DNA from: Pirellulales bacterium
Lineage (GTDB): Bacteria > Planctomycetota > Planctomycetia > Pirellulales > JAEUIK01
Length of the DNA stretch: 64,000 bases
Direction: 5' to 3'
NCBI GenBank assembly: GCA_019694435.1
Contig: JAIBBZ010000016.1
Coordinates: forward strand, 1 to 64,000
The notes beneath the pieces are model-generated. The model did no database searches. It was not told where the DNA came from and saw nothing but the letters and a program-made list of their open reading frames with translations. Both the position numbers and the translations under genes were made by a program. This document shows, piece after piece, positions 9,169 to 62,630 of the stretch. Position 1 is the first letter of the stretch. The number at the start of each line of letters is the position of its first letter.

Positions 9169-9984
9169 TCAACTCGGCCGCTGTGCCAGGGGCAGCGTGA
9201 CGACCGAAGTGCCCAGCATACCGCGCCGATCGCACAGGGCGCAGCGAGTCTGGCCGATCCCATGGTCGAGCCAGACGCTTTCCGGTGCCATCCGCACCCA
9301 AGGCTCTTCCGGGGCCCGGGCCAGGTGGAGCGTCAGGTCGGCGTTCATGAACAGGTACTGCGGGCTCTCCAGCCCGATGGGCGCCCCGAAGGCGTTGCCG
9401 CAGTCGGCCGCTGCGGCGACCGCCGCGGTGTGCGAGAGGGGGCGGCCCGGCAGCAGCTCGGCAAACACGCGAATCCAGGCCGCCGACGGTGTGGGCTTGT
9501 ACATGGCGCCGGGCACCTGGGTACGGATTTCCGAGGCTTCGTCGACAAACGGCGCCAGGCGCGGCTGGCGACCGTCGAAGTTCAGCGGGGCAAAATTCTC
9601 GGGCCGATCCGGCGGTGGCTGGAGTTCGACGCCGGTTCCTTCCAGGGGTGGCAGCGTGAAGTCCTGCTGGCGGGTGCGCTGCACAAAAGCCGACGCCGTG
9701 AATTTGTTCTCCTGCGACAAGGTGATTTCGAGCAGCGTGACGCGCCGGCCCGCCTTGACGATCCGTGAGCCCACCTCAAGCGGCTGCGTGGTCACGGGAC
9801 GCAGCAAGTCCATGGTCAACCGCGTGGTCACCCAATCGTCGCCGGGCACGAGTTCCTCGCCCAAGGTGACGCACAGCGCAGCGACCGGCCCGGCATGCAG
9901 GCTCTCGCTCGACCACGGACCTACGGCCGCGCGCTGTGGAAACCAGCGGTTCTGTTCGCGCTCGAAGAAGACAGGATGAGACAT
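9169..9984 (-). CDS. Acyl-CoA thioesterase-like double-hotdog protein
   Basis: The 271-residue protein resembles the thioesterase-like superfamily with two hotdog folds (TesB/4HBT_3 type). The first half contains the strand pattern LLRPVTTQPLEV, RIVKAGRRV, EITLSQ; the second half repeats it with ADLTLHLAR and VWLDHGIGQTRC. No signal peptide is present, so it is cytoplasmic. Hydrolysis of an acyl-CoA is the family activity; the chain length cannot be told. The ATG is 12 bases from the stop of the upstream VOC gene, which indicates one transcript. Confidence 0.75.
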   Translation of the reverse strand: MSHPVFFEREQNRWFPQRAAVGPWSSESLHAGPVAALCVTLGEELVPGDDWVTTRLTMDLLRPVTTQPLEVGSRIVKAGRRVTLLEITLSQENKFTASAFVQRTRQQDFTLPPLEGTGVELQPPPDRPENFAPLNFDGRQPRLAPFVDEASEIRTQVPGAMYKPTPSAAWIRVFAELLPGRPLSHTAAVAAAADCGNAFGAPIGLESPQYLFMNADLTLHLARAPEEPWVRMAPESVWLDHGIGQTRCALCDRRGMLGTSVVTLPLAQRPS

Positions 9985-9996
9985 TTGCCGCTGCGC

Positions 9997-10926
9997 TTAG
10001 TCTTGCCAGAGGCCTTCGGGGATCGGCTTCGACTCGACCACCTCGATGAGCACTTGATCGGGGCCTTGCACGAAGAAACTCTTGAGCTTGTGCGGTTCGC
10101 GCACGGCGATCGGTTCCACGATCGTCGCGCCCTCGCGCTGCATCCGCTCGAACACCGGCTCGATCTGCCGGTAGGAAAATGCAAGATGGTCGATCGGCCG
10201 CCCCCGGGTGGGCTGGATCTCCTTGAGCGGTGGATCGGGCCACCAATAGGGTGCAGGGTCCCAGTCGGGCTTGCCGAAAAAGATCATCAGCACGTTGTCG
10301 CACTGGATCGTATTGATCCAGATGTCGGACAGCGCCTTCGGATCGCCGGGCTTACGCGGTTCGGTCGGTGCGGGCGGCTTGGGCACCTGCGGCGCGCGCG
10401 GCTTCAGGCCCAGATGCTTCGCATACCAGGCACAGGCCGCATTCACGTCGTCCGCAAAGAAATGCACGTGGGCAAACCGGTGGTGGCCCATCGTGTTGAT
10501 CTCGATCAGCTCCTTGTCGGGCCCGCTGATGTACATGTAGTAGTTGTTCGGGCCCGGTAGCGGCGAAAGCGGCGTGTGGATGTCGACGTCGTGGTTTTTC
10601 CACCATTCGTACTCGTTCTTGACGTCGACGCCGCCCCAGCCGATGTGCCAGATGCCCGTGTTGAGCGCGGCCTCGGGCGGTTCTGCGACCTGGTTGAACA
10701 GGATGAACGAGCGCTCGGTGAACAGCGCCTCGACCGCGTCGTTGAACTGCACCGGCACGGCCCCGAACACCCGGCGGTAGAACTGCACGGAGCGTTTGGG
10801 GTTGGTGACATTCAGACGCACGTGGTGAAATCGCGCCGGCATAGGATCTTCGGCCCGTGCGGCGGGCGCGACCAGCGCCAGGCTGACCAAGACCAGCCAG
10901 CGAAGCGACGATCGTCGGGTTTGCAT
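9997..10926 (-). CDS. Exported VOC-family (glyoxalase/dioxygenase fold) protein
   Basis: The chosen ATG at 10926 has GGGAGA about 7 bases upstream and gives a signal peptide (LRWLVLVSLALVAPAARA), for a product of 309 residues. The frame is open for 77 more codons upstream, but that stretch has no protein-like content. Two vicinal-oxygen-chelate modules are visible: RFHHVRLNVTNPKRSVQFYR with GPDKELIEIN, and FAHVHFFADDVNAACAWYAK with LAFSYRQIEP and DQVLIEVVE. Metal-ligand His and Glu candidates are present (HHVRLN, ELIEIN). Export is unusual for glyoxalases but common among planctomycete VOC proteins. The substrate is unknown. Confidence 0.8.
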   Translation of the reverse strand: MQTRRSSLRWLVLVSLALVAPAARAEDPMPARFHHVRLNVTNPKRSVQFYRRVFGAVPVQFNDAVEALFTERSFILFNQVAEPPEAALNTGIWHIGWGGVDVKNEYEWWKNHDVDIHTPLSPLPGPNNYYMYISGPDKELIEINTMGHHRFAHVHFFADDVNAACAWYAKHLGLKPRAPQVPKPPAPTEPRKPGDPKALSDIWINTIQCDNVLMIFFGKPDWDPAPYWWPDPPLKEIQPTRGRPIDHLAFSYRQIEPVFERMQREGATIVEPIAVREPHKLKSFFVQGPDQVLIEVVESKPIPEGLWQD

Positions 10927-55513: not shown

Positions 55514-56107
55514 ATGCACACAGCAGACACAGACCTCTGGCAACTGCCCGCAAGACTACGAACGTTGGTCGAGGCAGAATTAGGCGACGGCGAACAGATT
55601 ACTTGGGTCGGTGTTCCGCGCCCTTGGCTGTTTGCCCTGTACTCCATGCCGATCGTCATTTTTGCCATTCCGTGGACCATCGGCTCCATCTTCTGGGTGG
55701 TGGCCGCGTCGGGATTCGAGATCCCCGACTTCGATCAAGGGTGGGATCTGTTCCCCCTGTGGGGTATCCCGTTCGTGTTGACTGGATTCGGGATGCTTAG
55801 CTCGCCGTATTGGCTCATGCGCAAGGCGAAGAACACGGTGTATGTCTTGACGACTACCCGCGCGATTATTTTTGACGGTGGCCTTTCGACGACCATTCGT
55901 TCGTTTGGTCCCGAGCGTCTCACCGACCTGCGGCGCAAGCAACGGGCCGATGGTTCGGGCGACTTGATTTTCGAACGCAGGCTATCGTACGACAGCGACG
56001 GCGATCGTCGCTCGATGGATCACGGTTTTCTGGCCATTTCGGACGTCAAGGCCGTCGAAGATCGGGTCCACCGACTGGTGGAAACATCGGCGAAGAAACC
56101 GGTATAG
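55514..56107 (+). CDS. Bacterial PH-domain membrane protein
   Basis: The 197-residue protein has GEQITWVGVPRPWLF, two membrane segments (ALYSMPIVIFAIPWTIGSIFWV and LWGIPFVLTGFGMLSS) and a C-terminal bacterial pleckstrin-homology fold (TVYVLTTTRAIIFDGG, SFGPERLTDLRRKQRADGSGDLIFE). The start is unsure: ATG 55475 would add 13 residues. Similar proteins are widespread in planctomycetes and of unknown role. The DNA is less GC-rich than neighbouring genes. Confidence 0.78.
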   Translation: MHTADTDLWQLPARLRTLVEAELGDGEQITWVGVPRPWLFALYSMPIVIFAIPWTIGSIFWVVAASGFEIPDFDQGWDLFPLWGIPFVLTGFGMLSSPYWLMRKAKNTVYVLTTTRAIIFDGGLSTTIRSFGPERLTDLRRKQRADGSGDLIFERRLSYDSDGDRRSMDHGFLAISDVKAVEDRVHRLVETSAKKPV

Positions 56108-56175
56108 CTGCCCGTTGCCAGGCTGGCCTGCTTGTTGGCTGCCAGCGCGATGCGGTATGCGATCGCTCAGAGACC

Positions 56176-56463
56176 ATGCAGAGCAGGAAGCAGATCAAGG
56201 TCAAGGTCGCGGCCGATGGAGACATCGCTGCCGATGGTCAACGCGTCACCGTCGAGCAATTGGCGATCAAGTTTGCCGATCTCAAGGCAACTCGCGGCGA
56301 GGTCTGGTATCACCGAGAAAACCCGGCCGACGAGCCGCATGCAAACGCATTGAAGGTCATGGAACTAGTGGCCGAACATGGCCTCCCGATCAGGCTATCG
56401 GCGATGCCGGATTTCTCCGATACGGTGGACGACAAGGGTGTGTCCGATCGTGGGGTGCCATAG
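56176..56463 (+). CDS. Small hypothetical protein with ExbD-like C-terminal fold
   Basis: The 95-residue protein lacks a membrane segment. Its sequence pattern, V-AADGDIAADGQRVTVEQLA followed by LKATRGEVWYH and NALKVMELVAEHGLPIRLS, resembles the periplasmic domain of ExbD/TolR proteins, but without the anchoring helix. The resemblance is from memory and not tested. It lies 68 bases after the PH protein on the same strand. Confidence 0.6.
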   Translation: MQSRKQIKVKVAADGDIAADGQRVTVEQLAIKFADLKATRGEVWYHRENPADEPHANALKVMELVAEHGLPIRLSAMPDFSDTVDDKGVSDRGVP

Positions 56464-56723
56464 CACCACGGATCATTCGTTGCTGGAGCTTTTTCGGCCT
56501 TCAATAGGCGCGCTTATCGCGTCCCTTGGTTGGCTCTACAGATTCGCCTGCAGCCGGCTTGCGCTCAAGGCATGCCTGTCTGCGCATGCCGGCAGATGAA
56601 TCATTGGCGGCGTCGGTCATGAACACCGATGCAGGCAAACAATTGATGCTCGGCCTAATCTGTCGATGTGACCGAATTAATTCAGTCGGACGTGCCTCAT
56701 TCGCCTTTTGCTTGCGGTGAGAT

Positions 56724-57578
56724 CTATATCGCCGTCCTCAGCTGTTGTAGCAAGGATTCCCAAGCAGCGTCGTATCCAGATTGCGCGTCGACTTCCACAA
56801 CCTCGACGTCGAGCGTTCGGATCGATTTCAATTCCGGCGTAACGGCGGGTTCTGTCCGAATGTTGTAGAATACGGTCCGTCCGACATTAACACCCCGCCG
56901 CTTCAGGCGAGCTTTGTAGTAGAGCATCCACCACAGGTCCAGCTCTGAATAGCTAAGCCCTAGCCCGAGGATGTGGACGTCGTCGCGGAGGAAGACATCG
57001 CACCATGAGTAAAGGCTTTTGCCCGACTCAAATTCTCGTATGCCAGAAGTAAACGGAGATTTTTTTCCGTGGTAGAACCCCTTCAGGAACAGGCGCATTC
57101 GCTGCACCTGCCCCATGTACTGGTCATAACCGAGCACCAAAGAGCGGGGGGTATTGATTTCGCCGTGAATGTGCCAGATCGACATCTTGGCGACGACTCG
57201 TCTGCGGAACAGGCTGTACTTTTTTGCGTGATGCGATATGTCGCGCGGCCGATCGTCTGATGCCTGTTCCAAAGCATAATCGTAGTTGGTTGTCAGGATG
57301 TGGCGCACGTCTAGGTCCAACAGCCGACGATGAAACAGATTCGGCCGCAAATCTCTGAGCTGGGCTGCGATTACCGACTTTACGCACGTGCGATCGTGAG
57401 TGTCGTGGGCCCTCAGCGTGGCGTCGTCGAAGAGCATCGTGAATGGTCGCCCGTCGTCCATGACGAAATCCGGACCAAGCTGCAGTGCTTCGGACATCTT
57501 CCGCAATACGTCGGCCCAACCAACATTCGTTGTCGACAGACGATTGATACTGTTGCCAACTAAGACAGCGGCAGACAT
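56724..57578 (-). CDS. Stand-alone SIR2-family protein (possible NADase, defence-type)
   Basis: The 284-residue protein has the prokaryotic SIR2 pattern: VLVGNSINRL near the N-terminus in place of GAGxS, LTTNYD (Asn98), WHIHGE (His138, the expected catalytic His) and LGLGLSYSELD (about 204-214). These sites occur in SIR2 domains that hydrolyse NAD+ during phage infection, for example in Thoeris-type systems. No zinc-binding Cys set is present, so protein deacetylation is unlikely. A TTG start at 57656 is possible but coincides with a -35-like box, so ATG 57578 is preferred. No associated TIR, Argonaute or helicase gene is adjacent. GC content is visibly lower than neighbours. Confidence 0.85.
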   Translation of the reverse strand: MSAAVLVGNSINRLSTTNVGWADVLRKMSEALQLGPDFVMDDGRPFTMLFDDATLRAHDTHDRTCVKSVIAAQLRDLRPNLFHRRLLDLDVRHILTTNYDYALEQASDDRPRDISHHAKKYSLFRRRVVAKMSIWHIHGEINTPRSLVLGYDQYMGQVQRMRLFLKGFYHGKKSPFTSGIREFESGKSLYSWCDVFLRDDVHILGLGLSYSELDLWWMLYYKARLKRRGVNVGRTVFYNIRTEPAVTPELKSIRTLDVEVVEVDAQSGYDAAWESLLQQLRTAI

Positions 57579-57988
57579 CTGAGCGATCGCACCCCTTTCA
57601 GACGACCAGTGTTCTCCGGGCACTGCCAATATGGCGATCGACGTTGTATCAATCAAGATTTTGCATATGCACCGGGCCGACGCCTCGACGCCGGTTGTTT
57701 ATCCTATCCAATTTGCTTCGGTGAAATCGACCGAGGCGACAGATGGTTCGATAGCGCCGGCCAGCGCGCACATGTCGAACGGACCCGGCGCGCTAGCGGA
57801 CGAGTGGACAACCGGCTTCGATCGCATTGGACGAAGGCGTACGCAGCTGAGCGGGCGCCTTTGCGGCCAGCCGCGCGAAGTGTGCCAGCGGTGATCTGCC
57901 GAGTGGAGGCCGGGATTATTGAGCTCGGCGAGCGTGGCGGTTCGTTCGTCGTGCGTCGCAGGTCTGACGCCATCGACGCCCCGCCGGT
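57579..57988. other. Intergenic region upstream of the SIR2 gene
   Basis: The 410 bases hold the promoter candidate for the SIR2 gene at 57628-57656. ORFs of 87-143 codons here on either strand lack protein-like composition or family resemblance. Nothing else is seen. Confidence 0.5.
57628..57656 (-). promoter_or_regulatory. Possible promoter of the SIR2 gene
   Basis: On the minus strand TTGATT (57656-57651) and CATATT (57633-57628) are 17 bases apart, each matching consensus at 4 of 6. A leader of about 43 nt would precede ATG 57578. Confidence 0.35.
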
Positions 57989-60046
57989 TCAGTCCGGAAA
58001 CTCCGCCGGATTGACGAAGTACGGCTGTTTGCGCTGGTAGTAGTCGAGCCGGCGGCGGATGGCCTTCACCTGGCGGTCCCACTCGGCGACTCCGCCCGGC
58101 GAGTTGGCCAGCTCGCGCGCGCGGCGTTCGCGGAGCGCACGTTCGTAGGCCTGTTGCGCCTCTTCCGTGGCGCGCTGGAAATCGCCGTTGGCCGCGTAGG
58201 CCGCGCCCCAGGTGTCGTGGGCCGATACGAACAGCGATGAGACCGTCGGCACGCGCGGTACGATCCGGCTGCAGATCTCCAGGGCGCGCGCCGGATCGCG
58301 GTGGCTCGATTCGTGGTGCGTGGCCAGGACCCAGGCCAACATTAGTTGGGCCTGACGATTGTTCGGGGCGGCCTTGATCAGTTGCTCGAAGGTCCGCACC
58401 GCTTCGGCCGTGCGGTTCAGGCGGTTCAGCATCGTGGCCAGCGCCAGATACGTTGCATGTCGCGGATCGTGCTCGAGCGACTGCTGGTAGTAGAAGGCGG
58501 CCTCGTTCAGGCGCCCCAGCTTCTCGGCGCATTGGCCCAGGTTGTACAGCGTGTTCGGGTCGTCGGGGGACAGTACGTTGCACGCCAGCAGGGCCTGAAA
58601 CGCCTCGCCATAGCGCGACAGCCGCATCAACGTGCTCGACTTGTTGAACAACGCCGCGGGATAGTTCGCATACAGCTCCAGCGTCCGGTCGTAATGGACC
58701 AGCGCCTCGTCGAAGCGACGCTGGCTGGCCAGGGCATTCGCCAGGTTGTAATGGGCCAGGTGGTTGTTTTCCGTGACCTCCGTGGCGTGGGTAAACAAGG
58801 TCTCGGCGTCGCGCCAGTAGCCGACCTGCCGCAGGCAGAGCACCGAGAGGGGTAGCAGCACGGCGGCGGCCAACGCGCCGCCCACGTATCTCCGGGCCCG
58901 CGGCGCGAGCCGCCGTTCGAGCAGTCCGGCAATCGACCAGACGCCCAACAAGAACAGCCCGATGAACGGTAAGTAGGTGTAGCGATCGCAGCGGGCCGTA
59001 CCGCCGATTTGCACCAGCCCAATCACCGGCACCAGCATGCCGACGAACCAGAACCAGCCCACTGGAACGAAGGCCCAGCGCCGGGCCGTGAGCAAGGCCG
59101 CGAGCGTACCGCCGGCGAGCACGGCGGCGCTGGCCAGCGTGGCCGAAGTCACCTGAATGTCGAGCGGCAGGGGGTACATCAAGCACAAGCGCGTCGGCCA
59201 GATCGCGCTATGCAGGTAGGCCCCATAGGCGTTCGTGGCGGTGATCAGCCGCTCGCCGGGCGATTGGAATTCGAGCGAGACGACAAAGCCCTGCTTTTGC
59301 TGCACGTGAAACGTGATCCAGCTCGACACGGCCACGAGCATCAGCCAGGGCAGTTTTTCGGCGACGAGCAGGCCCGCCCCCAGGGGATCGAAGCGGCCCG
59401 CCGTGCGCAGCGCCGATCGGCGCAGCGGCCACACGTCGAGCAACAGCAACAACAGCGGCACCGTGACCAGCATGGCCTTGCTCATCAGCCCGCAGGCCAG
59501 GCAGACGGCCACGACCAGATGCCGCCCCAGCGAGGGCCGCCGGACGTAGGCTCCATACGCGGCCAGCGTGAGCATGAAGAAGAAGCCGGAGAGTACGTCT
59601 TTGCGTTCGGCGATCCAGGCGACGCTTTCGACCCGAGTAGGGTGGATGGCAAACAGCGCGGCCACCAGGGCACTGCAATACAGCCGGCCCGTCCAGCGCG
59701 TCAGCGTGAAAAACAGCACGGCCACGCTCGCCGCGTGTAGCAGCAGGCTGGTCAGGTGAAAGCCGCCGGGCCAGGGCGCAGAACGCGCTCCGGAACCTCG
59801 GCTCCACAGGCTCACGTCGGCAAGCAGGCTCAGCATGGTGAGCGGATGCCAGTTGCCCTGAACCTCCGAAGTCCAAGCCCACCGGAACGTGTCCCAGTTG
59901 AGCCCCTGGAGCACGACCGGGTTGGCGAAGACATAGACGTCGTCGTCGTAATAGATGAAGGGGTGCGCGAGGATCGGCGCAAAGACGGCCAACGTCACGG
60001 CGACCAGCAGGCAGGCCAGCAGAAGCTCGAGCGCGCGGCGGGACAT
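57989..60046 (-). CDS. Membrane glycosyltransferase-like protein with C-terminal TPR repeats (TMTC-like), paralogue A
   Basis: The product (about 685 residues) has about ten or eleven membrane helices in its first 410 residues, then TPR repeats (NLANALASQRRFDEALVHYDR, NLGQCAEKLGRLNEAAFYYQQ). YDDDVYVFANP after the first helix supplies the acidic motif of GT-C glycosyltransferases, and HPTRVESVAWIAERKDVLSG and DRYTYLPFIG are signature blocks shared with its neighbour. The architecture resembles eukaryotic TMTC O-mannosyltransferases and their bacterial relatives. A TTG at 60067, overlapping the upstream gene's stop, would add 7 residues. Confidence 0.85.
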   Translation of the reverse strand: MSRRALELLLACLLVAVTLAVFAPILAHPFIYYDDDVYVFANPVVLQGLNWDTFRWAWTSEVQGNWHPLTMLSLLADVSLWSRGSGARSAPWPGGFHLTSLLLHAASVAVLFFTLTRWTGRLYCSALVAALFAIHPTRVESVAWIAERKDVLSGFFFMLTLAAYGAYVRRPSLGRHLVVAVCLACGLMSKAMLVTVPLLLLLLDVWPLRRSALRTAGRFDPLGAGLLVAEKLPWLMLVAVSSWITFHVQQKQGFVVSLEFQSPGERLITATNAYGAYLHSAIWPTRLCLMYPLPLDIQVTSATLASAAVLAGGTLAALLTARRWAFVPVGWFWFVGMLVPVIGLVQIGGTARCDRYTYLPFIGLFLLGVWSIAGLLERRLAPRARRYVGGALAAAVLLPLSVLCLRQVGYWRDAETLFTHATEVTENNHLAHYNLANALASQRRFDEALVHYDRTLELYANYPAALFNKSSTLMRLSRYGEAFQALLACNVLSPDDPNTLYNLGQCAEKLGRLNEAAFYYQQSLEHDPRHATYLALATMLNRLNRTAEAVRTFEQLIKAAPNNRQAQLMLAWVLATHHESSHRDPARALEICSRIVPRVPTVSSLFVSAHDTWGAAYAANGDFQRATEEAQQAYERALRERRARELANSPGGVAEWDRQVKAIRRRLDYYQRKQPYFVNPAEFPD

Positions 60047-60063
60047 GCGTCGTGAGGGCTTCC

Positions 60064-62157
60064 TCAAAAACGTCCGCGGGCCGGATCGTGGCGATACGAC
60101 TTCAGGTCGAGATACAGCTCACGGCGCTCGCGCATCCGCTCGGTCAGCAGGCGAACGTCGGGGCGGATGTCGAACGCCGGATCGAGCCATTCGCGGTCGT
60201 AATAGGTATGCGACTTCTTGTCGAGTTCGCCCAGGGCGATGCCGTTGTACTCGATTGCCTTTTCGACCTTTTCAACCGCCTCGGAGTACTTGTGGATGCC
60301 CGACAGCGCCGCGGCCAGGGCATCGAGCGAACGTACTTCGTGCTGAAACGTCAGGCTGCAAGCCTGGCGAGCGATTTCGACCGCCTGGCGCGGGTCATAG
60401 ATCTGGATGTCCTGCGTGGTGCCGAGCAGCCAGGCCAGCTCGGTGAGCATGAGGGCGTCCTTGGGGTATTTGCGCACGCGCTCGACGAGCACGTCCTTGG
60501 CCGCGGCGGTGTCGCCCGCCCAGCACATGGCCTGCACCAGGTAAGGGAATGCGTCGGGCCAATCTTCGCCGCGCTGCCGACGCTTGTCGATCGCCGTGCG
60601 GAAGGCCTTGACGGCCGCCTGGGGGCGGCTGCGTTTCAGTTCGATCAGGCCGAGCTTGAAATAGTCTTCCGGGTGGATCGACTGCTTGATGCCCTTGCGC
60701 ATCGAAGTCTCGGCCTCGTCGTAGCGGCCCAGGCAGTACAACGCCCACCCCCGGTTGCACGCCGAGGGCCAGTCGCCCGGCTCGTAGCTCAGCGCCAGCT
60801 CGAAATGCTCGATGGCCTCCTCATGATTGCCCTCGCGGGCCAAGGCGTTGCCCACGCCGCGGTGCGCGAGAAAGTTGCGCGGGACCACCTCCGCGGCGTG
60901 CTGGAACAGTGTCTTGGTGTTGCGCCAGTAACCGACCTGGACCCACGTGACGGCCGCCAGCGCAGCCAGCCAGATGATCGATGCCGCGACTAACAGGCGC
61001 TGTCGGGCTCGGTTCGATTGGGCCCACCAGAGTACGGTCCAGACGGTCATGATCGTGATGCCGATCATCGGAATATAGGTGTATCGGTCGGCGCGAGACT
61101 GACCGCCGACCTGGACGATGCCCACGGCCGGCACCAAGGTGCCCAGGTACCAGAGCCAGCCGGAAAGGAGCCACGGGAGGTTCTTGCGCAACGTCCAGGC
61201 GACGAGAGTGACGACCACCAACGCCAGGATGGCGCGGCCGATCATGAACCAGGTCATCCGGTACGACAGATGGGGATAAAACACGGCCATGTTCGTCGGC
61301 CAGACGAATTGCACGACATATTCGCCGTAGGCCACGATCGCGTTGAACACCCGCGTCATCGGCGGGACCGCCTTGAGCGATTGCACGGCCCCCTGCGACT
61401 GCACGACGAACGTAATCCCGCTGCTGACCGCGATCAGCGCGAACCAGGGAAGCTTTTCGACCACGAGTGCGCCGAACTGCCGCAGGTTTTCCCGAAGGGA
61501 CTTGTCGGCCGCGCCGAATCGGGCCAGCGGCCAATAGTCCAGCACCAGCATCAATGCCGGCGCCGTGACGATCATCGGCTTGCTCATCAATCCGAGCGCG
61601 AGCAGCACGGTGATCGTCAGGTAGCCGCCGCGCGAGGGAGCGCGGACATACACGGCATAGGCCCAGAGCGACGCCAGCCAGAAGCAGCCGCAGAGCACGT
61701 CTTTGCGCTCGGAGAGCCAGGCCACGCTCTCGACGCGCAAGGGATGCAGGGCAAACAGGGCAGCAACCAGGGCCGAGGGCCAGAATCTCCCCGTCATGGC
61801 CGCCAGCGCCAATAACAGCAGCACCGCGTTGGCGGCGTGCAAAGCGATGTTGGTCAGATGATGGCCACCCACCCAACGTTGACCGTAGATTTGCGAATCG
61901 ATCATGTGGGTAATCACCGTCAACGGGTGCCAGTTGGCGCCCACCGACGCGGTCCACACCCAGACCAGGTTCTCGGGCCGTAAACCCGTATTGATGTGCG
62001 GGTTGTTGGCTACGTATTCGAAATCGTCAAAGTTGACGAAGTCGTAGCGAAGCGTCCGCGAATAGAGCAACAGGCAGGCCGCCGCGAGAGCGATGCAGAC
62101 GGCGGCGCGTATCCCGGCGCGGGGGGGCGGCGCACTAACGGCAGGATCGGTCGTCAT
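60064..62157 (-). CDS. Membrane glycosyltransferase-like protein with C-terminal TPR repeats (TMTC-like), paralogue B
   Basis: The 697-residue protein shows the same blocks as its neighbour: FDDFEYVANNPHIN after the first helix, WHPLTVITHMID, HPLRVESVAWLSERKDVLCG, KPMIVTAPALML and DRYTYIPMIG, then TPR-like repeats to the C-terminus. ATG 62157 is chosen because the frame upstream of it is not protein-like. The two genes are adjacent on the same strand and surely arose by duplication. A lipid-linked sugar donor and a periplasmic protein acceptor would be expected for a GT-C enzyme. Confidence 0.87.
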   Translation of the reverse strand: MTTDPAVSAPPPRAGIRAAVCIALAAACLLLYSRTLRYDFVNFDDFEYVANNPHINTGLRPENLVWVWTASVGANWHPLTVITHMIDSQIYGQRWVGGHHLTNIALHAANAVLLLLALAAMTGRFWPSALVAALFALHPLRVESVAWLSERKDVLCGCFWLASLWAYAVYVRAPSRGGYLTITVLLALGLMSKPMIVTAPALMLVLDYWPLARFGAADKSLRENLRQFGALVVEKLPWFALIAVSSGITFVVQSQGAVQSLKAVPPMTRVFNAIVAYGEYVVQFVWPTNMAVFYPHLSYRMTWFMIGRAILALVVVTLVAWTLRKNLPWLLSGWLWYLGTLVPAVGIVQVGGQSRADRYTYIPMIGITIMTVWTVLWWAQSNRARQRLLVAASIIWLAALAAVTWVQVGYWRNTKTLFQHAAEVVPRNFLAHRGVGNALAREGNHEEAIEHFELALSYEPGDWPSACNRGWALYCLGRYDEAETSMRKGIKQSIHPEDYFKLGLIELKRSRPQAAVKAFRTAIDKRRQRGEDWPDAFPYLVQAMCWAGDTAAAKDVLVERVRKYPKDALMLTELAWLLGTTQDIQIYDPRQAVEIARQACSLTFQHEVRSLDALAAALSGIHKYSEAVEKVEKAIEYNGIALGELDKKSHTYYDREWLDPAFDIRPDVRLLTERMRERRELYLDLKSYRHDPARGRF

Positions 62158-62630
62158 AGGGTGCGGGATCGGCGAGGACCGAGCGGTCCGAGACGGGTGT
62201 AGAGCACTCTTGGGGCAACGGTGTGCATCGTAGCCCGATTCGAAACGCAATCACAAATCGGTAGGGGGCCCGTTTGATCAACCCCCTGGAGGACACGGCG
62301 GAGTTGGCCGGTGGTCGGTTCTTCGTAACTCATGTTTTGACAAGCACTTACGTCTTTTCAAGTACTGTCACAAGCCGTTGATCCGAAAAACTCATCAAAA
62401 ACCGAAAATCGCCAACTTTTTGTTTGACACGCATCACCGCGCCTCGTAATCTATGGACCATACGCCCGAAAGCGGGCGCAATGCGCGTGTTGCATTGGCT
62501 CAGGCCTCTAGTAGGCAACGGGCCATTGAATGCGTGGGCTCACAACGACGACGGGCGGCGGAGCTCGAGCTGGTTCGGCCGCACAAAAACTGAAGACGAC
62601 GGATTCTCAGGACCAATCGGAGAGACGCTA
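62158..62630 (+). other. Long leader region of the PEP-CTERM gene
   Basis: The 473 bases between divergent genes contain an AT-rich tract (about 62325-62425), an almost consensus promoter (62424-62452), and two adjacent hairpins in the transcribed leader: CGCCCG/CGGGCG (62463-62478) and CAATGC/GCATTG (62479-62497). A leader of about 170 nt follows. No gene is seen in it. Confidence 0.5.
62424..62452 (+). promoter_or_regulatory. Near-consensus sigma-70 promoter
   Basis: TTGACA (62424-62429) and TAATCT (62447-62452) are exactly 17 bases apart, after an AT-rich stretch that could act as an UP element. Transcription would start near 62459 and read the PEP-CTERM gene. Confidence 0.7.

Follow-up and report, generated by a model that had tools for sequence, protein, structure and literature searches.

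A short gene on the minus strand of the Pirellulales contig analysed here encodes a SIR2-family protein with little around it, and the question it raises is whether so small a protein could be an antiphage NADase, as the initial annotation proposed for this stretch of 64,000 nucleotides (the window). Most of the known antiphage SIR2 enzymes have a sensor domain or a partner. We think it rather probable that the gene encodes a single-domain, antiphage-type SIR2 NAD+ glycohydrolase, most likely acquired horizontally, that acts as a stand-alone or loosely partnered effector of abortive infection.

Reading frame, start codon and catalytic residues

The minus-strand frame between positions 56724 and 57656 is open and intact and carries all of the motifs attributed to it (VLVGNSINRL, LTTNYD and WHIHGE). 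The frame thus stands, but its start does not: translation most likely begins at the ATG at 57578 rather than the TTG at 57656, because homologues begin 3-5 residues ahead of their VL(V/I)GN motif, and a purine-rich stretch, GAAAGGGG, lies upstream of this ATG. The most likely gene spans 56724..57578 on the minus strand, stop codon included, and encodes a bare SIR2_2-domain protein of 284 amino acids. The in-frame 5' extension (57579..57656, minus strand) is probably untranslated, and its 26 residues have no counterpart in most relatives.

Codons 95-106 (57261..57296, minus strand) specify LTTNYDYALEQA, in which Asn98 is the catalytic-type asparagine that aligns with the Asn of TTNYD in ThsA and KomC. 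Residues 134-140, IWHIHGE (57159..57179, minus strand), include the catalytic-type His138, which aligns with the HG motif of ThsA, KomC and FAM118B; the label "His138" given earlier is correct in the 284-residue numbering. Both residues expected for NAD+ hydrolysis are therefore kept, as had been claimed. The protein has only two cysteines, at positions 65 and 193, and no CxxC pair; a canonical sirtuin zinc site is therefore lacking, in agreement with the first description.

Domain assignment and predicted fold

The protein matches Pfam SIR2_2 (PF13289) with E=1.2e-10 and 42.1 bits, against a curated cut-off of 24.5. The best PADLOC model is ThsA (8.4e-12), followed weakly by PDC-S25, LmuA, Dsr1 and Dsr2. 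No NCBIfam equivalog fits, and NCBIfam Dsr2 scores 14.3 bits against a cut-off of 1400. Among solved chains, those most similar to it in sequence are ThsA, KomC and FAM118B.

An AlphaFold2 model, built from an alignment of 44 family sequences, has a pLDDT of 89.4 and a pTM of 0.90. The initial annotation had suggested structure prediction and comparison with DSR, ThsA and other SIR2 defence families, and the comparison with VIA-align places the model close to them, with Z-scores of 20.0 for ThsA, 19.7 for KomC, about 18 for DSR2, 15.4 for SPARSA, 14.7 for Avs5 and 14.3 for FAM118B; SIR2-HerA (about 12-13) and canonical CobB-type sirtuins (about 11) lie at the lower end. The SIR2 domain makes up the entire protein, with the ThsA SIR2 domain (residues 17-280) spanning its 284 amino acids, and leaves no sensor domain over.

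A singleton gene in low-GC DNA

The gene lies in DNA of lower GC content, as was noted at the outset: its GC is 0.547, and its GC3 of 0.66 falls below that of the window's large ORFs, whose median is about 0.80. A low-GC segment (about 0.57) at 56100..57990, which contains only the SIR2 gene and a 95-amino acid ExbD-like fragment, is probably an acquired segment. The ExbD-like fragment (56176-56463) adjoins the SIR2 gene and covers the C-terminal part of its profile only. The promoter-like sequence claimed for the gene found no support, as no sigma-70-like promoter occurs in 56100-58000 (shuffled sequences gave 1.0 +/- 0.9); planctomycete promoters may differ, and this null result is therefore an absence of support and nothing more.

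The neighbours of the gene in the window are a TPR protein, the ExbD fragment and a protein that matches no Pfam family. Among the scanned neighbours there is no recognised defence gene, and the window holds no partner, which bears out the first impression. Two tandem TPR proteins occupy 57992-62250 and belong to a family matched about a dozen times in the same genome. No syntenic empty site could be demonstrated, the flanking TPR family being multi-copy and the other flank matching only one sampled relative.

Clear orthology to a housekeeping family, syntenic in all relatives, had been named as a finding that would speak against a defence role, and it does not hold for this genome. The SIR2 gene is absent from all 56 sampled relatives of the source genome, and no family member was found in 391 other sampled planctomycetes with either the single sequence or the family profile; the window thus holds the sole copy in 392. 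Since the gene is a singleton among planctomycetes and low in GC, it was most likely acquired horizontally. The source genome does encode a second SIR2_2 protein (a 751-amino acid frame; L095, G000:C11:105479-105811), which falls outside the family described below.

A family of bare SIR2 proteins

Some 80 members of the family were found, mostly 20-34% identical to the window protein, with 34% the maximum. In annotated collections, relatives on plasmids and on a Salmonella contig are 25-32% identical. Peptide-pattern scans with the window protein alone returned nothing from viral or genome contigs, and a scan of viral contigs with one Chitinophaga protein gave no match; an alignment of relatives was required, and the search based on it added 67 bacterial and 5 viral-contig loci. 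A DNA search with the Salmonella gene as query found a homologue in a single E. coli genome of 5,426.

Asn98 is invariant in all 78 aligned relatives. His138 is present in 42 of the 42 closest relatives (group A), and His136 is also invariant in the nearest ones. The family signature comprises GN.IN, W21, H83, TTNYD, WHIHG, LG..HY.G..Q..R and GL.LD..E.DLWW, to which the window protein conforms apart from variant residues here and there, such as DQY in place of EHY. Two clades make up the family tree. That of the window protein (52 rows, SH-aLRT 100) keeps WHIHG and DLWW with few exceptions, and within it the window protein forms a long, lone branch of unsure exact placement. The 23 rows of the sister clade carry LRWLL and often have Asn or Gln where His138 would stand. 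These replacements (WHINGM, WHLQG), which mostly leave His136 in place, occur in L003, L004, L052-L054 and L056-L059, with further cases in L061, L063, L065, L067 and L069-L072. The KomC variant H146N (9xvc) is a change of the same type, if H146 is the equivalent residue. Given that no relative found exceeds 34% identity to the window protein, its function may have shifted relative to theirs.

Neither PADLOC nor NCBIfam has a model of its own for this family, and no report of it, or of an AlkB-SIR2 operon, was found in the open-access literature. The family appears to be a family-level variant of the antiphage SIR2 proteins and a plausible one-gene, NAD-depleting defence.

Genomic settings of the relatives

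The E. coli ZH177 homologue (L008, 12001-12909) belongs to a P2-like prophage, where it follows a PIN-domain gene in the interval bounded by the tail-fibre-assembly gene and late-control gene D; we take this to be about where P2 carries its Z/fun cargo. P2-like phages are known to carry defence hotspots (PMC9122126, in which another P2 site was analysed). The Salmonella and Citrobacter homologues have downstream neighbours in common and occupy the cargo slot of a PFGI-1-type integrative element (ICE), where the Salmonella gene adjoins a PADLOC PDC-S28 helicase and has dnd genes in its vicinity. In a Lentimicrobiaceae genome (L050, 6410-10244) the SIR2 gene separates hsdS from hsdM in a type I restriction-modification system, with gene ends that overlap or nearly do so. 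Other relatives lie 8 bp after an SNF2/PLD helicase gene, behind an Eco57I-type methylase, near a HerA ATPase or, on an Agrobacterium plasmid, ahead of a TmtA-like gene. Trabulsiella and Pluralibacter carry a single SIR2 gene at one conserved site, and an Opitutales metagenome-assembled genome (L043, 3690-6085) has two different SIR2_2 genes that overlap by 4 bases. Yersinia and viral contigs (L042, L077, L079) share an overlapping HNH_2-SIR2 pair, and in L042 and L077 a KAP-family ATPase gene comes next, possibly making up a three-gene defence operon; the HNH partner recurs, at greater distance, in one Verrucomicrobia locus.

No neighbour family recurs widely among these loci, and most relatives have no conserved neighbour. 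The immediate neighbours (112 proteins) matched 256 PADLOC families and the genes six positions away (81 proteins) matched 95, in a control that is rough in that one protein can match many models and the listed distant matches are mostly of kinase type. Because prophages, mobile elements and restriction operons harbour its relatives, the window protein is probably a small single-domain immune enzyme.

Chitinophaga presents a different setting. A clear orthologue (54-100% identical to L009, locus 9357-10876) is present in 53 of 79 genomes, and there is one weak match besides. In 35 of the 46 Chitinophaga loci analysed (L100-L145), an AlkB-like gene (2OG-FeII_Oxy_2) lies about 15-90 bp upstream on the same strand, in many cases itself preceded by an AlkA-like HhH-GPD gene. 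Of the 35 pairs, 32 show stronger conservation of SIR2 than of AlkB, and all 46 orthologues have TTN[YF] and WHxHG. The pair is also kept in a second genomic setting, such as that of L133, with a TypA/BipA-like neighbour (assigned by eye). Part of the family may be linked to DNA damage, since an orthologue that is near-core and tied to AlkB is atypical of mobile defence cargo. The antiphage reading of the initial annotation is to be qualified accordingly: its core is upheld by the antiphage-type rather than zinc-sirtuin fold, the two catalytic residues and the defence-associated or mobile settings of relatives, while the Chitinophaga orthologues leave room for a role in stress or DNA damage.

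Proposed function and its alternatives

Known SIR2 effectors are activated by a ligand (ThsA, KomB-KomC), by a phage protein (DSR2) or in company with filament formation (ThsA, Avs5, FAM118B). For the window protein we infer NAD+ hydrolysis, activation through a change of oligomeric state, and an antiphage outcome. In uninfected cells the protein would be held inactive. Upon infection a trigger, which might be a directly bound phage component or metabolite or else a partner encoded at another locus, would alter its oligomeric state, as the analogy with ThsA, KomC, Avs5 and DSR2 suggests. Judging by the residues present and the predicted fold, Asn98 and His138 would then cleave NAD+ to nicotinamide and ADP-ribose, and depletion of NAD+ would halt multiplication of the phage.

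Several observations weigh against this reading: no recognised defence gene adjoins the window gene, the closest solved single-domain homologue (KomC) works with its partner KomB, the near-core, AlkB-linked Chitinophaga orthologues are unlike typical defence cargo, the identity to known relatives is low, and the DNA search turned up just one E. coli genome with a homologue. The second of these invites the view that the protein is the NADase half of a multi-gene system, as KomC is, with its sensor (HAM1-like, HerA-like, an AAA ATPase or another) encoded elsewhere in the genome. We consider this unlikely, although no bare SIR2 protein of solved structure comes closer than KomC, some relatives in Yersinia and on viral contigs have tightly linked candidate partners (HNH, KAP ATPase), and contigs C1 and C69 of the source genome each carry a HAM1-like gene. 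The window contains no partner, the candidates vary by subclade and most relatives lack a conserved neighbour, HAM1 proteins occur in 14 of 14 control genomes, and in sequence the protein resembles KomC no more closely than it does ThsA. The two Ham1p_like genes lie at G000:C1:500987-501556 and G000:C69:6127-6690; one of them may be the housekeeping ITPase. With two HAM1-like genes elsewhere and no ThsB_TIR in the genome, a remote partner is conceivable yet none is indicated.

Alkylation damage offers another explanation, in which the ancestral or alternative role of the family is to lower NAD+ as alkylated DNA or nucleotides accumulate. The frequency of the Chitinophaga orthologue, the AlkB-like gene directly before it, the stronger conservation of SIR2 than of AlkB and the full retention of both motifs speak for such a role, but no AlkB or AlkA homologue is found beside the non-Chitinophaga relatives or in the window, and identity between the window protein and the Chitinophaga orthologues is only about 34%; for the window protein we give the explanation a slim chance. 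Slimmer still, and in our judgment very improbable, is that the protein is not a NADase effector at all but a canonical-type sirtuin (a deacylase or ADP-ribosyltransferase), an NAD-binding regulator or a decayed gene. Many sister-clade relatives have Asn or Gln for the catalytic His, and non-catalytic roles may therefore occur nearby in the family; for the window protein, however, the zinc module is absent, the fold score is about 11 for canonical sirtuins against 20 for ThsA, and the frame is intact with full motifs.

The effector reading of the window protein can be extended, speculatively, to the whole family. The bare SIR2 proteins would then confer one-gene NADase immunity in which one domain serves as sensor and executor alike; the Chitinophaga version would have been domesticated as part of a near-core operon with AlkB (and often AlkA), through which NAD+ depletion is coupled to alkylation damage or to phage DNA modification. 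We regard this extension as decidedly doubtful, but the AlkB linkage does provide a testable, non-phage hypothesis. It is also worth emphasizing that a family of bare SIR2 proteins, occurring alone in many settings, would offer a minimal system in which to learn how such NADases are restrained and switched on.

Relation to known SIR2 systems

ThsA of type I Thoeris (8bto, 8btp, 7uxt, 8wc0) is the closest protein in fold and has the best PADLOC model and the same Asn/His pair, but it carries a C-terminal SLOG domain for cyclic ADP-ribose, whereas the 284-residue window protein has no SLOG or macro ligand-binding domain. ThsA also works with ThsB, a TIR partner, and the source genome (assembly 98% complete) has no ThsB_TIR match. 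KomC of the Kongming system (9v0g, 9xvc, 8zsf) is likewise a bare SIR2 protein, of about 270 amino acids, with TTNYD and HG motifs. It differs in working with KomA and KomB, and no KomB-type (HAM1-like) gene lies near the window gene; its sequence match is also slight (phmmer E only 0.003). KomC uses KomB with dITP (PMC12948488, PMC12774641).

DSR2 and DSR1 share the SIR2 NADase domain but are proteins of about 1000-1200 amino acids with a large C-terminal phage sensor, so that the window protein corresponds to their SIR2 part alone. SIR2-HerA (Nezha) has the SIR2_2 fold in a longer SIR2 protein with a HerA partner, and no HerA occurs among the scanned neighbours of the window gene. Canonical zinc sirtuins, with their four-cysteine zinc module, stand farther off than any of these.

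The vertebrate protein FAM118B (SIRal) is a stand-alone SIR2_2 protein whose LTTN(F)D and HIHG motifs align with those of the window protein. In the human enzyme, mutation of the active-site residues N163 (also written N168) and H206 blocks NAD processing with FAM118A (PMC12700824). FAM118B differs in belonging to a vertebrate clade, in its own filament surface and in having FAM118A as a partner (PMC12700824), but the bare SIR2 family resembles the FAM118 proteins in lacking added domains.
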